Of a stretch of 39,442 nt of DNA, positions 22,570 to 32,677 are shown in pieces (within the stretch, counting starts at the first letter, position 1; every line of letters starts with the position of its first letter). The DNA lies in NCBI GenBank assembly GCA_913774845.1, contig CAJYJO010000023.1:1-39442 (forward strand). Reading direction: 5' to 3'. The stretch is from an uncultured Microbacterium sp. GTDB lineage: Bacteria; Actinomycetota; Actinomycetes; Actinomycetales; Microbacteriaceae. The notes under the pieces were generated by a model. That model made no database searches. It was given only the letters and a program-made list of their open reading frames with translations, and had not been told where the DNA came from. The translations under genes and the position numbers were made by a program.

Positions 22570-22600
22570 CCTTTAACCCCGTCCCGTGAGGCGGAGAAGG
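22570..22600 (+). promoter_or_regulatory. PyrR-binding RNA hairpin overlapping the pyrR ribosome-binding site
   Basis: GTCCCGTGAGGC at 22581-22592 matches the PyrR RNA-loop pattern RUCCNGNGAGGY. CCGUGA (22584-22589) forms the hexaloop, G81-C92, U82-G91, C83-G90, C80-G93 and C79-G94 form the upper stem (numbers are 22,5xx), and CCUU (22570-22573) pairs with AAGG (22597-22600). The lower arm includes the pyrR Shine-Dalgarno AAGGGAG. No following terminator is present. This fits translational repression by PyrR, as described for mycobacteria, rather than attenuation as in Bacillus. Confidence 0.75.
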
Positions 22601-22609
22601 GAGCAGCGG

Positions 22610-23140
22610 ATGAGTACGCGCACCGTCATGCACGATGCCGATATCGCCCGCGCTTTGACGCGCATCTCGCACGAGATCCTGGAGTCCAACAAGGGTCCGG
22701 AAGGACTCGTCCTCCTCGGCATCCCGACCCGCGGGGTCACGCTCGCGAACCGGATCGGCCCCCTGGTCAGCGAGTTCGGCGGCGTACAGGTCCCCGTCGG
22801 CTCGCTCGACGTGACGATGTACCGCGACGACCTGCACCGCAACCCCACGCGGGCCCCGCGCAAGACCGAGATCCCCGCCGGCGGCATCGACGGCAAGGTC
22901 GTCGTGCTCGTCGACGATGTGCTGTTCTCGGGCCGCAGCATCCGTGCCGCCCTCGACGCCCTGCAGGACATCGGGCGCCCCGCGGCCGTCCGCCTGGCGA
23001 CCCTGATCGACCGCGGTCACCGCGAGCTTCCGATCCGTCCCGACTTCGTGGGCAAGAACCTCCCCAGCGCGCGCGACGAGCGTGTGAACGTCCGCCTCGC
23101 CGAGATCGACGGCGTCGAAGAGGTGACGATCGAATCATGA
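22610..23140 (+). CDS. pyrR: bifunctional pyr operon regulator / uracil phosphoribosyltransferase
   Basis: PyrR senses UMP/UTP and PRPP, binds pyr leader RNA and usually has some uracil phosphoribosyltransferase activity. The 176-residue protein has the PRPP-binding loop [35 protein letters not shown] and the C-terminal [17 protein letters not shown] typical of PyrR. The ATG at 22610 follows AAGGGAG inside the predicted PyrR-binding hairpin, so the protein probably represses its own translation and that of the coupled operon. The stop overlaps the pyrB start by four bases. Confidence 0.95.
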
Positions 23141-24105
23141 GGCACCTCCTCGACACCCAGCACCTTTCGCGCGAAGACGCCCTCGAGATCCTCGACGTCG
23201 CCGAGGACATGGCCGACACCCAGCGCCGCGAGGTCAAGAAACTGCCGACGCTGCGCGGCAAGACCGTGGTGAATCTCTTCTTCGAGGACTCCACGCGCAC
23301 GCGCATCTCGTTCGAAGCCGCCGCCAAGCGCCTCTCCGCCGACGTCATCAACTTCTCGGCGAAGGGCTCGAGCGTCAGCAAGGGCGAGTCCCTGCAGGAC
23401 ACGGCGCAGACGCTCCAGGCGATGGGGGCGGATGCCGTCGTCATCCGCCACGGCGCCTCCGGGGCCCCGCGGACCCTCGCCACCAGCGGATGGATCACCG
23501 CGGGCGTGGTGAATGCCGGCGACGGCACGCACGAACATCCCACGCAAGCGCTGCTCGACGCCTTCACGATCCGCAAGCGCCTCTTCGGCGACGGCAGTCG
23601 GGGCCGCGACCTCGACGGCATCCGGGTCACGATCGTCGGTGACGTGCTGCACTCGCGTGTCGCCCGCTCGAATGTCTGGATGCTGCACACCCTCGGCGCG
23701 CACGTGACGCTGGTCGCTCCGCCCACCCTCGTCCCGCAGGACGTCAGCGGCTGGCCGGTGGAGATCGACTACGACCTCGACCACGCGATCGCCGCCGGCC
23801 CTGACGCCCTCATGATGCTGCGCATCCAGCTCGAACGCATGTCTGCCGCGTATTTCCCGACTGAACGGGAGTATTCGCGCCGGTACGGCCTCGACGCGCG
23901 GCGATTGGACGCGCTGCCGCCCGCTAGCATTGTCTTGCACCCCGGTCCGATGAACCGAGGTCTGGAGATCTCCGCCGAAGCCGCCGATTCGCCTCGTTCG
24001 ACGGTGCTCGAACAGGTCACGAACGGGGTCTCCGTGCGGATGGCCGTGCTGTACCTGCTGCTGGCAGGAGAACGGCCCGACACCGAGAAAGAGGACCTTC
24101 GATGA
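23137..24105 (+). CDS. pyrB: aspartate carbamoyltransferase catalytic subunit
   Basis: PyrB joins carbamoyl phosphate and aspartate, the committed step of pyrimidine synthesis. The 322-residue protein has the carbamoyl phosphate motif [11 protein letters not shown], the loop [14 protein letters not shown], the HPTQ motif and [12 protein letters not shown] near the C terminus. No pyrI regulatory subunit is present, as in other actinobacteria. It overlaps both pyrR and pyrC by four bases. Confidence 0.97.
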
Positions 24106-25424
24106 GCCACGCCACCCCCCAGACCCTTCTGGTCCGCGGCGCGCGCGTCGAGGGTCAGGATGCCACCGACCTCCTCGTCCAGGGCGGCGTCATCGCCGAG
24201 ACCGGCACCGGCCTGTCGCACGTCGGCGCCACGGTCGTCGACGCCGACGGGCTCATCGCCCTGCCCGGCCTCGTCGACCTGCACGTGCACCTGCGCGAGC
24301 CCGGGTTCGAGGCATCCGAGACCGTCCTGACCGGATCCCGCGCCGCCGCCGCCGGCGGATTCACCACGGTGTTCGCGATGCCGAACACCTCGCCCACCGC
24401 CGACACCGCCGGCGTCGTCGAGCAGGAGCTCGCCCTCGGCGAAGCCGCCGGCTACGTGCACGTGCAGCCGATCGGCGCCGTCACCGTCGGGCAGAAGGGC
24501 GAGCGCCTCGCCGAGCTCGGCGCGATGGCCGACTCCCGCGCGCGCGTCCGCGTCTTCAGCGACGACGGCTTCTGCGTCTTCGACCCGCTCATCATGCGCC
24601 GGGCACTCGAGTACGTGAAGGCCTTCGACGGGGTCGTCGCCCAGCACGCGCAGGACCCGCGCCTCACCGAGGGCGCCCAGATGAACGAGGGCGCCGTTTC
24701 GGCGGAGCTGGGCCTCACCGGCTGGCCGGCCGTCGCCGAGGAGTCGATCATCGCCCGCGACGTGCTGCTGGCGGAGCACGTGGGCTCGCGCCTGCACGTG
24801 TGCCACCTCAGCACCGCGGGCTCGGTCGACATCATCCGGTGGGCCAAGAAGCGCGGCGTCAATGTCACCGCCGAGGTCACCCCGCACCACCTGCTGCTGA
24901 CCGACGAGCTCGTTCGCGACTACGACGCGCGGTACAAGGTCAACCCGCCGCTGCGGCGCGAGGAAGACGTGATGGCCGTGCGCGAGGGTCTGGCCGACGG
25001 CACGATCGACATCGTCGCCACCGACCACGCGCCGCACCCCGCCGAGGCGAAGGCCTGCGAGTGGGCGGCCGCCGCGAACGGCATGGTGGGGCTCGAGAGC
25101 GCCCTGCGGGTCGTCCAGCAGGCGATGGTCGACACGGGGCTCCTCGACTGGGCAGATGTTGCACGCGTGATGTCGAAGACCCCGGCGCGCATCGGCCGTC
25201 TCGACGGACACGGCACGCCGATCGCCGCGGGGCAGCCGGCCAGCTTCACGCTCTACGACCCGCGCCCGTCGCGCACCTTCGCGGTGTCCGACCTTCGCGG
25301 CCGCAGCAAGAACTCGCCCTACCTCGGGCGCGAGCTGCCCGGCGAGGTCCGCTGGACCGTGCGCGCCGGCATCCCCACCGTCGCCGAGGGTGCGCTGCTC
25401 GATGCACCGGGGGAGCTCGCGTGA
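24102..25424 (+). CDS. pyrC: dihydroorotase
   Basis: PyrC cyclises carbamoyl aspartate to dihydroorotate. The 440-residue class I enzyme has metal ligands in [19 protein letters not shown], the [12 protein letters not shown] motif and the catalytic ATDHAPHP motif. It ends with the usual [11 protein letters not shown] region. The ATG at 24102 overlaps the pyrB stop, and its own stop overlaps the next gene. No pyrD (dihydroorotate dehydrogenase) follows; that step must be encoded elsewhere. Confidence 0.96.
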
Positions 25425-25924
25425 CCCGCGAGGGAGCCCTCCTCGTCATCGCCGGGGTCGCCCTGCTCGCCCTCGTCGCTCTGGCGTGGGCGTGGCTGCG
25501 ACGAACGCGGCGCGATGCGCGCTACATCGCCCCGGTGGGGGAGCTGCCCGAAGGCGCCGTCGACATGGCGACGTTCTCGGGGCTCTACGTCGCCACGACC
25601 CGTCACGAGGAGCCGCTCGAGCGTCTCGCCATCAAGGGTCTGGGCTTCCGCTCGCGCGTCGACGTCACGGTCACCACGGCCGGCGTCGCCCTCGACCTCC
25701 CGGGCCAGCCCCGCATCGCGCTCACCCGCGACCGTCTCGTCGACGCCGGCCAGGCGACCGTCGCCATCGACCGCGTGGTCGAACGCGACGGCCTCACCCG
25801 CGTGACCTGGCGTATCGACGACGACACGCTCGTCGACACCTATCTCCGACCCCAGGATGCCTCGGCGAAAGCCCTCGCCGACGCGATCCGCCCCCTCCTC
25901 CCCACGACAGGAAGCGACGCATGA
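25421..25924 (+). CDS. PH-like-domain membrane protein of the pyr operon
   Basis: This 167-residue protein has one N-terminal transmembrane helix (about residues 5-27: [20 protein letters not shown]), a basic stop-transfer stretch RRTRRDAR, and a soluble beta-rich domain ([36 protein letters not shown]). Mycobacteria carry a comparable membrane protein (Rv1382) between pyrC and carA, so position and architecture are conserved although the function is unknown. The GTG at 25421 overlaps pyrC by four bases and the stop overlaps carA by four bases, so it is a true member of the operon. Confidence 0.85.
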
Positions 25925-27070
25925 CCGCCCTGATCACGACAGACCCCGCCGTCCTGGTCCTCGAAGACGGCACCCGCTACACCGGCCGCGCCTACGGCGC
26001 TCGCGGCGAGACCCTCGGCGAGGTCGTCTTCGCCACCGGCATGACCGGCTACCAGGAGACGATCACCGACCCCTCGTACGCGGGCCAGATCGTGCTGCAG
26101 ACCGCCCCCCACATCGGCAACACCGGCGTGAACGACGAAGACCCCGAGTCGCGTCGCATCTGGGTCGCCGGCTACGTCGTGCGCGACCCCTCGCGCATGG
26201 TGTCGAACTGGCGCGCGAACCGATCGCTCGACGAGGCGCTCGTCGAAGACGGCATCGTCGGCATCTCCGGCATCGACACCCGCGCCGTGACCCGCCGCAT
26301 CCGTTCCGAGGGCAGCATGCGCGGCGGCGTCTTCTCGGGCGAGGCCGCGAGCCTCGACGCCGACGAGCAGCTGCGCCGCGTGCGCGAGGCCCCCGGCATG
26401 GCGGGGCGCAACCTCTCGGCCGAGGTCTCGGTCAGCGAGGTCGAGGTGACCCCGGCGACGAGCGAGCGCATCGGCAACCTCGCCGTGCTCGACCTGGGCG
26501 TGAAGACCTCGACGATCAACAACCTCGCGGCGCGCGGCTTCGACGTGCACGTCTTCCCGCAGTCGGCGACGATCGACGAGATCCGCGCGATCGAACCGGT
26601 CGCGGCGTTCTACTCCAACGGTCCCGGTGACCCCGCGGCATCCGATCAGCACGTCGACCTGCTGCGCGCGGTGCTGGGTGACGGCCTGCCGTTCTTCGGC
26701 ATCTGCTTCGGCAACCAGCTGCTGGGCCGCGCCCTCGGCTTCGGCACGTACAAGCTGCCGTTCGGTCACCGCGGCATCAATCAGCCGGTGCTCGACAAGA
26801 CCACGGGCCGCGTCGAGATCACCTCGCAGAACCACGGATTCGCCGTCGACGCGCCCCTGAACGAGGTCGTCGACAGCCCGAACGGCTTCGGCCGGGTCGA
26901 AGTGAGCCACATCGGCCTCAACGACAACGTCGTCGAGGGACTGCGCGCCCTCGACATCCCCGCGTTCAGCGTGCAGTACCACCCCGAGGCCGCCTCGGGA
27001 CCGCACGACGCCAACTACCTGTTCGACCGCTTCCGCGAGATGGTTCTCGCGACGATGGAGACCAAGAAGA

Positions 27071-27078
<8 letters not shown>
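25921..27078 (+). CDS. carA: carbamoyl-phosphate synthase small subunit
   Basis: CarA is the glutamine amidotransferase subunit that supplies ammonia to CarB. The 385-residue protein has an N-terminal domain with [20 protein letters not shown] and a class I GATase domain. The nucleophile Cys lies in [12 protein letters not shown], where most CarA proteins have GICLGHQ; His and Glu follow in [11 protein letters not shown]. The ATG at 25921 overlaps the preceding stop, and its own stop overlaps carB by eight bases. Confidence 0.97.
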
Positions 27079-30354
<3,276 letters not shown>

Positions 30355-30358
<4 letters not shown>

Positions 30359-31215
30359 GCGAGACGTTCGGTCAGCGGCTCTCGGCCGCTCTCGACCTGC
30401 ACGGCGCCCTGTGCGTCGGCATCGACCCCCACGCCGCACTGCTGTCGGCGTGGGGGCTGGATGCCACGGCATCCGGCGCTCGCGACTTCGGACTGCGGGT
30501 GGTCGAGGCCGCCCGCGGCCGCGTCGGCGTGGTCAAGCCGCAGGTGGCGTTCTACGAACGATACGGCTCGCGCGGCTTCGCCGCTCTCGAGGACGTGATG
30601 GCCGCCGCCCGCGACGCCGGCCTTCTCGTGATCGCCGACGCCAAGCGGGGAGACATCGGCACGACGATGGAGGGCTACGCCCACGCCTGGCTCGAGCCCG
30701 GTTCTCCTCTCGAGGCGGATGCCGTGACCCTGTCGCCGTACATGGGTGCCGACTCGCTGAGCGACACGCTGTCGCTGGCGGTCCGCCACGGCAAGGGCGC
30801 GTTCGTGCTCACGGCGACGAGCAATCGCGAAGCGCGCGCGCTGCAGAGCGCGATCGTCGACGACGCCCTCGCCGTGGGCGACCACGAGCACGTCGCGGCC
30901 CGGGTCGCGCACGACGTGAACCAGGCGAACATCGGCGCGCCCGGGGCCCTGGGCCCCGTGGGGGTCGTCGTCGGCGCCACGGTCGATCGCGCCGCCTTCG
31001 GGCTCGGCGACGTCGCGCTGGCCGGTATGCCGATCCTCGCACCCGGCTTCGGCGCGCAGGGGGCCGCGCCGGCCGATCTCGGCCGACTGTTCGGCTACGT
31101 CGCGTCCGCGGTCGTCGCCAACGAGAGCCGCAGCATCCTCGCGGTCGGGCCCGACCGCCTCTCCGCCCGCATCGACGAGCGCGCCGCGCTCTACCGGGAG
31201 TCCCTGAATGGCTGA
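30355..31215 (+). CDS. pyrF: orotidine 5'-phosphate decarboxylase (type 2)
   Basis: PyrF decarboxylates OMP to UMP. The 286-residue protein is the longer type 2 form found in actinobacteria, with the catalytic Lys-Asp motif [30 protein letters not shown] and [10 protein letters not shown]. The GTG at 30355 overlaps the carB stop by four bases, and the end overlaps the next gene by eight bases. The gene holds GGATGCCACGGCATCC at 30459-30474, an inverted pair of the octamer that is abundant across the window. Confidence 0.96.
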
Positions 31216-32113
31216 AACCCGTCGTCCGCCCGAGGTCGACCGCGCCGCCGCCTCGCGCCGCGCCGTCGAGGCACGTCGCGAGCGCGCCGCGCTCAAGCGC
31301 GACGTCTCCACGCGCGTCATCTCGCCGCAGGAGCTGCTGCGGCGAGCTCTCGCCGATCCGCAGTCGGCGGCCGGGGCGATGCGCGTGACCGAGTTCCTCA
31401 CGGCGATCCCCGCGATCGGCGAGAGCAAGCGCGACCGCATCCTCGCGTCGCTGAACATTTCGCCGGTCAAGCGCCTCGGCGGTCTCGGGACGCGTCAGCG
31501 CACGGCGATGCAGGGCTTCCTCGATTCGCGGTGGCCCGAACCCGGCCCGCGCGCGGGACGCAGCCGCCTCATCGTGCTCGCCGGCCCGACCGCCGTGGGC
31601 AAGGGCACGGTCGCCGCGCACATCAAGGAGAACTACCCCGAGATCCACCTCTCGGTCTCGGCCACCACCCGCGCCCCGCGCCCGGGCGAGGTGGACGGCG
31701 AGCACTACTACTTCGTCGACGACGCCGAGTTCGACCGTCTGATCGCCGACGGCGAGCTGCTCGAGTGGGCGACGGTGCACAACCGACACCGTTACGGGAC
31801 GCCGCGCGAGCCCATCGAGCGCGTGCTCGCCGAGGGCGGAACGGCGCTGCTCGAGATCGATCTGCAGGGCGCGCGACAGGTGCGCGCGGCCGACCCCTCG
31901 GCGACCCTCGTCTTCCTGCTCCCTCCGAGCTGGGACGAACTCGTCCAGCGTCTCGTCGGACGCGGGACGGAGGATGCCGAGGAGCGCGCGCGACGACTGC
32001 GCACAGCGCGCGTGGAGCTCGCCGCGCAGAACGAGTTCGACTACCGCGTCGTGAACGAGGACGTCACCTCGGCAGCCGCCGACGTGGTCGCCCTCGCCGC
32101 AGCGCAGCACTGA
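31208..32113 (+). CDS. gmk: guanylate kinase with an N-terminal mIHF-type DNA-binding domain
   Basis: The 301-residue product has two parts. Residues 1-107 match actinobacterial integration host factor (mIHF/sIHF): a basic, Ala-rich N-terminal helix, then the helix-two-turns-helix segment VTEFLTAIPAIGESKRDRIL and SPVKRLGGLGTRQRTAMQGF. Residues 119-301 form guanylate kinase, which phosphorylates GMP, with P-loop GPTAVGKGT (126-134), SATTRAPRPGEVDGEHYYFV and LLEIDLQGARQV. In mycobacteria mihF and gmk are separate neighbours. No in-frame start with a Shine-Dalgarno site lies just before the kinase; the only candidate, ATG at 31508, has none. The gene ends the pyr operon and overlaps pyrF by eight bases. 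Confidence 0.92.
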   Translation: MAETRRPPEVDRAAASRRAVEARRERAALKRDVSTRVISPQELLRRALADPQSAAGAMRVTEFLTAIPAIGESKRDRILASLNISPVKRLGGLGTRQRTAMQGFLDSRWPEPGPRAGRSRLIVLAGPTAVGKGTVAAHIKENYPEIHLSVSATTRAPRPGEVDGEHYYFVDDAEFDRLIADGELLEWATVHNRHRYGTPREPIERVLAEGGTALLEIDLQGARQVRAADPSATLVFLLPPSWDELVQRLVGRGTEDAEERARRLRTARVELAAQNEFDYRVVNEDVTSAAADVVALAAAQH

Positions 32114-32330: not shown

Positions 32331-32585
32331 ATGGCCGGACGTGACAAGGGCATCATCGACCCGCCCATCGACGCTCTGCTCGACAAGGTCGACTCGAAGT
32401 ACCAGCTCGTGATCTACGCGTCCAAGCGCGCGCGCCAGATCAACGACTACTACTCCGACCTGCACGAGGGCAACCTCTTCGACAACGTCGGCCCCCTGGT
32501 CGACTCGTCGGTCGAAGACAAGCCCCTCACGATCGCGCTGCACGAGATCCACGAAGACAAGCTGCGCCTTCGCGCCGCGGAGTGA
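32331..32585 (+). CDS. rpoZ: DNA-directed RNA polymerase omega subunit
   Basis: Omega helps fold and assemble the beta' subunit. The 84-residue protein matches actinobacterial omega: [40 protein letters not shown] and a C-terminal [19 protein letters not shown] strong AGGAGG site lies six bases before the ATG. It has its own promoter and terminator. In many actinobacteria coaBC lies between rpoZ and metK; here nothing does. Confidence 0.96.
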
Positions 32586-32604
32586 TTCGTTCACAGATGT
32601 GACG

Positions 32605-32637
32605 ATGCCCCGGACGGCCCACCGCCGTCCGGGGCAT
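32605..32637 (+). terminator. intrinsic-type terminator of rpoZ
   Basis: ATGCCCCGGACGG pairs perfectly with CCGTCCGGGGCAT (13 bp) around a 7-base loop, 19 bases after the rpoZ stop. It is followed by ACTTGTG, with only a weak U-tract. Confidence 0.75.
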
Positions 32638-32677
32638 ACTTGTGCCCGTTCCCCGATCACGATCTCCCGGAGCCGTC

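Follow-up and report, generated by a model that had tools for sequence, protein, structure and literature searches.

An actinobacterial IHF domain fused to guanylate kinase in one reading frame in Microbacteriaceae

We analysed a window of 39,442 nucleotides from an uncultured Microbacterium sp. and found that the gene at 31208-32113 (forward strand) encodes an actinobacterial IHF domain followed by a complete guanylate kinase (GMK). The fusion is real, as originally predicted, but is not peculiar to this genome: it occurs in almost every listed genome of the Microbacteriaceae, a large family of bacteria from soil and plants. Both domains belong to known families. No paper describing an IHF-guanylate kinase fusion was found in the open literature, most subscription journals lying outside the search. 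The reading that we prefer, with a probability of roughly 0.6, is a bifunctional protein in which both domains most likely retain their ancestral functions, now at a fixed ratio of 1:1.

The fused gene and its genomic setting

The frame begins with an ATG and encodes 301 residues with no internal stop; a Shine-Dalgarno (SD)-like GGGAG (31196-31200, forward strand) lies 7 nt 5' of the ATG at 31208. The N-terminal domain (residues 1-107, 31208-31528) is of the mIHF/sIHF type with an S13-like H2TH fold. The NCBIfam profile for actinobacterial IHF, NF041260, matches residues 11-102 at 68.4 bits over a curated cut-off of 60 (71.6 bits when the whole genome was searched), and the Pfam family PF22525 (H2TH_5) matches at 40.8 bits. 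A sequence search with residues 1-118 retrieved the structures of mIHF (6tob, 1.5e-11) and sIHF (4itq, 5.5e-9). The usual length of the free protein (about 105-110 aa) is not kept, the frame running on into the kinase; since NCBI types NF041260 as 'equivalog_domain', a domain model, longer proteins are allowed for. After a linker of about residues 108-118 (31529-31561), the kinase domain occupies residues 119-301 (31562-32110), and the equivalog profile TIGR03263 (guanylate kinase) matches residues 120-296 at 214.6 bits (cut-off 160.45). The P-loop GPTAVGKGT is found at residues 126-134; in an alignment of 40 sequences GPTAVGKG is invariant and the following Thr nearly so. Pfam likewise reports Guanylate_kin and an S13-like H2TH domain in the fused protein, with no match to PF00216 (HU/IHF superfamily) at E up to 1. 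Thus, the predicted architecture of an mIHF-like domain and a complete guanylate kinase in one uninterrupted frame is borne out by two profiles that both exceed their curated cut-offs, and the assignment of the N-terminal region to the mIHF/sIHF family by the structures retrieved as well.

The full-length AlphaFold2 model, built on an alignment of 40 sequences, had a mean pLDDT of 89.5 and a pTM of 0.80, with a pLDDT of 67 for residues 111-120 in the linker. When the IHF domain was modelled alone (pLDDT 92), the top Foldseek entries were 6bek and 4itq, and DNA-bound sIHF (6bek) aligned with a TM-score of 0.85 on target, 1.8 Å and 28% identity. The kinase domain aligned with M. tuberculosis Gmk (1znw) with a TM-score of 0.92 on target and 54% identity.

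The gene directly follows the pyrimidine genes, in agreement with the original prediction. Genes for PyrR-like, PyrB, PyrC, CarA and CarB proteins occupy 22586-30358 on the forward strand (the first four assigned by Pfam, CarB from its translation and place), and pyrF (30355-31215, forward strand; OMPdecase in Pfam) shares its last 8 nt (31208-31215) with the 5' end of the fused gene. Downstream are rpoZ (32331-32585, forward strand; PF01192) and then genes for MetK and a PriA-type protein, assigned by Pfam. Since the Rothia and Pseudarthrobacter loci keep the order carB, pyrF, IHF, gmk, rpoZ with IHF and gmk as separate genes, the placement after the pyr genes looks ancestral. The IHF gene was just 5' of gmk in all 32 separate loci examined, with 8-119 nt between profile ends.

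The genes farther downstream vary within the family. In 19 of 22 Microbacterium-type loci, the 19 being those that could be measured, metK lies 26-208 nt from rpoZ (32586-32641 in the window), while the interval is 1.0-1.6 kb in 36 of 49 measurable loci from the rest of the family and short again in the other 13, including Curtobacterium and Frigoribacterium. The gene between rpoZ and metK, which we take from the mycobacterial gene order to be coaBC, was probably lost or moved more than once. RpoZ, MetK and PriA were absent within 7 kb 3' of the fused gene in five Leucobacter loci, which we read as a local rearrangement.

The fused gene is the only copy of either domain found in the source genome, which is 99.99% complete. 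A search for another mihF with NF041260 at E up to 10 gave no second actinobacterial IHF over the cut-off. The sole other match, at 18.3 bits and under the cut-off, was rejected as a second IHF, its sequence reading as ribosomal protein S13. A profile of the fused protein gave one match in the genome (E up to 1e-10), and a second guanylate kinase was not found there. At E up to 0.001 the genome contains one HU-family gene and two Lsr2 genes. The Lsr2 genes share a strand and are separated by about 1 kb (G000:C19:23306-24693). The only HU-family gene found (G000:C50:179103-179369) is a 97-residue open frame, too short for a long tail of the kind that mycobacterial HupB carries.

Distribution, origin and loss of the fusion

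We scanned named genomes with the fused alignment as the query, so that the best 80 of at least 515 confirmed loci considered here are no unbiased census. By title 76 of the 80 are Microbacteriaceae, three of these being metagenome-assembled genomes titled only Actinomycetota; the remaining four, from Rothia (2), Pseudarthrobacter and Cellulomonas, all have separate genes. Both domains were in one frame at 75 of the 76 family loci. The exception was Pseudolysinimonas kribbensis NBRC 108894, where the frame is broken. It was rejected as a genuine split, the CarB, PyrF, MetK and PriA frames of that assembly being partial too, and the assembly likely carries many indel errors. The broken frame indicates that errors do arise at this locus, and one could suppose that the fusion itself is a sequencing or assembly artefact created by a lost stop. 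However, 75 of 76 loci are fused in frame, which makes an error hiding a stop between the domains, a possibility raised with the original prediction, very unlikely; we give it practically no weight.

The window's genome belongs to a family group, f1, which is inferred from the named loci to be the Microbacteriaceae. An IHF match was obtained in 274 of the 299 f1 genomes, 250 of them over the cut-off. Among the matches listed, the open frames were at least 283 residues long with one exception; this short frame was rejected as a genuine split, its IHF and kinase being unlike those of the family, and probably comes from a mis-binned contig. All 30 relatives whose loci were read in f1 were fused, as was the window's own locus.

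Outside f1 the picture is mixed. Among 159 genomes of the same order (11 from f1 and 148 others), uninterrupted fusion was absent outside f1 in the matches listed, and in at least 15 of the 148, IHF and gmk share a frame and are separated by one or two stops. It appears that the fusion needs little beyond the loss of a stop. The searches at class level (345 genomes) and phylum level (296 genomes) give lower bounds for the number of fusions. In f44, a group of 33 genomes of 1.2-2.2 Mb found in the class-level search, 26 had a stop-free match across both domains; five more matched with one stop, and the junction, when read, was open in all five. The remaining two have separate genes. In f51 (17 genomes searched), two genomes, both of genus g227, are fused, and nine have the IHF in its own short frame. 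The other six, of genera g195 and g236, gave a match to the kinase only, actinobacterial IHF being undetected at E up to 1e-5, which indicates that absence of IHF is not confined to the fused family. The phylum-level search added f62, where the fusion rests on one fragmentary genome (82% complete, 340 contigs). Stop-free fusion thus occurs in at least four family groups of the phylum (f1, f44, f51 and f62).

Twenty-five f1 genomes gave no IHF match. Twenty of these were examined: in 16 the kinase was present and the IHF absent, whereas in four, which are 59-88% complete, neither domain was matched. The 16 genomes indicate that some relatives can dispense with the IHF half and that the kinase can do without it. 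The distance from the pyrF stop to the P-loop was 11-50 nt in 11 of the 13 IHF-less loci measured and 356-532 nt in four fused loci. The other two IHF-less loci have longer intervals: 304 nt in L168, where an Ala/Thr/Pro-rich N-terminal stretch, in frame with the kinase, takes the place expected for IHF, and 3,013 nt in L171. No IHF remnants were found in the 1.5 kb before the P-loop of the IHF-less loci (3.4 kb for L171), the best match having an E of 2.4.

The fusion was mapped on two family trees built by quick searches from CarB, PyrF, Gmk, RpoZ and MetK, with 12 of the 16 IHF-less genomes included. In the first tree (52 rows) a small-genome group, g11+g14+g82, branches first and g71+g66 is nested; for g11+g14+g82, loss before the fusion and loss after it are not distinguishable on this tree. 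In the second (67 rows; 20 added and five dropped, including the long-branched L175), a fused long-branch genome, L183, takes the deepest position, with the two IHF-less groups nested further in. Both trees require two changes within the family. They suggest one gain near the family base followed by two losses as the simplest account, the place of g11+g14+g82 not being firm.

Constraint on the IHF half and possible roles of the fusion

We compared dN/dS over 250 of the 253 pairs of 23 Microbacterium-type sequences, those with a kinase dS below 1.3. The value was 0.23 for the IHF domain and 0.20 for the kinase, indicating that the IHF domain is under purifying selection close to that on the kinase. 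The linker (residues 107-118) had the highest value of the protein regions measured, 0.39. The neighbours gave 0.19 for CarB and 0.34 for PyrF (250 pairs each), 0.22 for MetK (187 pairs) and 0.21 for RpoZ (207 pairs). Codon usage was tried as a proxy for expression and gave no useful signal, the GC3 of IHF minus that of the kinase being -0.018 in 75 fused and -0.028 in 32 separate cases.

At greater distances the constraint on the fused IHF looks weaker, since its divergence exceeds that of free IHF at kinase p-distances of 0.20-0.30. Between 0.20 and 0.25 the IHF divergence was 0.41 in fused (453 pairs) and 0.26 in free proteins (32 pairs), and between 0.25 and 0.30 it was 0.50 (1004 pairs) and 0.36 (73 pairs), the pairs not being independent. 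The gap narrows beyond 0.30, and between 0.05 and 0.20, where there are only 10 free pairs, no clear difference was observed. The mean net charge of the IHF domain was +8.3 in family-fused (75), +6.3 in free (32) and +9.4 in other-group fused proteins (12); it is +9 in the window.

Eleven positions were tabulated in 49 free, 75 family-fused and 18 other fused rows, the last from 15 genomes with three rows that repeat a genome. R23, R26 and Q97 are identical in every row. Residue 88 is Arg in all 49 free rows and Lys in 74 of the 75 family-fused rows. Residue 91 is Arg in 39 of the 49 free rows (otherwise Lys in 3, Gln in 3 and Gly in 4) and in none of the 93 fused rows, which have Gly (81), Ala (6), Gln (5) or Ser (1). 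As a result, the window has K-R-L-G-G-L-G where free proteins commonly show an R-R-x-R-G-L-G loop, the arginines of which presumably contact DNA in mIHF. The altered residues 88 and 91 suggest that DNA binding may have changed. Residue 91 was rejected as a signature of fusion: Gly or Gln also stands at this position in seven of the 49 free rows, among them free proteins of f44 and f51. A residue other than Arg at this position is only suggestive as a mark of fusion, and may precede it.

According to the preferred reading, adjacent mihF and gmk would have become one frame by losing the intervening stop in an ancestor of the Microbacteriaceae. The product would be a basic DNA-binding domain joined to a normal guanylate kinase through a short linker that is probably flexible. 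By analogy with sIHF and mIHF, the IHF half would bind DNA nonspecifically and bend it, and the kinase half is predicted to convert GMP and ATP to GDP and ADP. For the fused protein we infer DNA binding, kinase activity, an intact full-length chain, a change of dosage and the stop-loss route. The dosage is a puzzle. In M. tuberculosis, mIHF is essential and among the ten most abundant proteins (PMC6155035), an abundance beyond what we would expect of a nucleotide kinase. With IHF and kinase held at 1:1, either the kinase would be far more plentiful or the contribution of IHF to the nucleoid would be smaller. A smaller contribution would agree with the more rapid divergence, the lack of Arg91 and the losses of the domain. 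It is plausible that IHF tolerates a fused globular partner, since msIHF, which is essential in M. smegmatis, has been fused to fluorescent proteins in strains that grow like the wild type (PMC10028186).

The same observations bear on an alternative that treats the IHF domain as a relic or an accessory, one that has given up its architectural role across the chromosome and persists as a loss-prone basic extension for stability, nucleic-acid anchoring or folding. It would account for the divergence in excess of free IHF at middle distances, for the lack of Arg91 in 93 of 93 fused rows and for the kinase-only genomes of the family with their short intervals between pyrF and the P-loop; the HU-family and Lsr2 genes of the source genome could supply other nucleoid proteins. 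However, a dN/dS near that of the kinase, a mean net charge above rather than below that of free IHF, and the retention of R23, R26 and Q97 in all rows argue against a relic, and we consider this account unlikely, if the strongest of the alternatives. Another possibility is that the fusion exists at the gene level only, with cleavage of the chain yielding two functional proteins or with additional synthesis of the kinase from an internal start. The linker, with its low model confidence and highest dN/dS, could be accessible to a protease, and an in-frame ATG (Met101) is present at 31508. That ATG, near which initiation had been considered in the original prediction, has no GGAG, GAGG or AGGA in the preceding 15 nt, and 93% of the 75 fused relatives have Leu at residue 101. 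A start with an SD-like motif was detected at the junction in 4 of the 75 fused genes, in both 18- and 28-codon windows, compared with 19% of 525 control 18-codon windows inside the kinase, and a conserved internal start was rejected on these counts. The length and sequence of the linker also vary among fused proteins, with no shared motif visible by eye. Since a conserved signal was found neither for splitting after translation nor for internal initiation, we hold either to be highly improbable.

Regulatory coupling would be a more elaborate outcome: ligands of the kinase (GMP, ATP or (p)ppGpp) would modulate how the IHF half binds or bridges DNA, or binding to DNA would affect the kinase. 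The stop-free fusion in four family groups is in its favour, as is the inhibition of GMKs by (p)ppGpp in several phyla (PMC6783271). In the reported GMK dimer, the C-terminal helix of one monomer acts on the lid of its partner and sets (p)ppGpp inhibition, so that a dimer of the fused protein would present two IHF domains; actinobacterial GMKs are not named in the passages of PMC6783271 on the dimer and (p)ppGpp. Against coupling, fusion could easily arise from the adjacency of the genes alone, 16 of the 20 match-less family genomes examined retain a kinase and no IHF, and the linker is poorly ordered in the model. Coupling is in our judgement improbable, and the suggestion in the original prediction that the fusion could tie nucleotide state to chromosome structure found no support, the kinase-only genomes showing that the kinase manages without the IHF half. 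A specific and equally doubtful form of this idea is a nucleotide-responsive nucleoid protein, in which a dimeric kinase carries two IHF domains that bridge or bend DNA and lid movement reports the supply of guanine nucleotides. If this were true, GMP/ATP turnover or (p)ppGpp binding would shift the geometry or affinity of the DNA complex, chromosome structure would read guanine nucleotides, and the recurrent fusion without Arg91 would reflect tuning for reversible DNA binding.

Whichever account holds, the reason for the essentiality of mycobacterial mIHF is still discussed (PMC6155035, PMC10028186), and a family with IHF welded to an essential enzyme, together with its kinase-only relatives, offers natural experiments on the need for IHF. 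The same natural experiments bear on why IHF sits beside gmk. In most family genomes examined, the guanylate kinase is a protein of about 300 residues with a DNA-binding-type domain, a form that matters for annotation and for purification of the enzyme.

Comparison with known systems

HU-type proteins (PF00216), to the superfamily of which we take E. coli IHF to belong, share only the name and a general role with the fused IHF domain; the fused protein lacks a PF00216 match, and the source genome encodes its HU-family protein in another gene. According to PMC6155035, mIHF and E. coli IHF are without sequence similarity. The closer counterpart is M. tuberculosis mIHF (Rv1388, 6tob), to which the fused domain is detectably similar in sequence and which also lies directly 5' of gmk; gmk and rpoZ follow mihF as separate genes in that species, as originally stated (PMC6155035). 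Unlike the fused domain, mIHF is a free protein of about 105 aa, indispensable to M. tuberculosis and present there in very high amounts (PMC6155035), and in our alignment it has Arg at the equivalent of residue 91, which the fused domain lacks. Streptomyces sIHF (SCO1480; 4itq, 6bek) is the best structural match of the fused domain, but is a free protein of 107 aa. The kinase domain is matched by M. tuberculosis Gmk (Rv1389; 1znw, 1s4q) with 54% identity and TM-scores of 0.92-0.93 on target, whereas Rv1389 is a separate gene whose product has no IHF domain.
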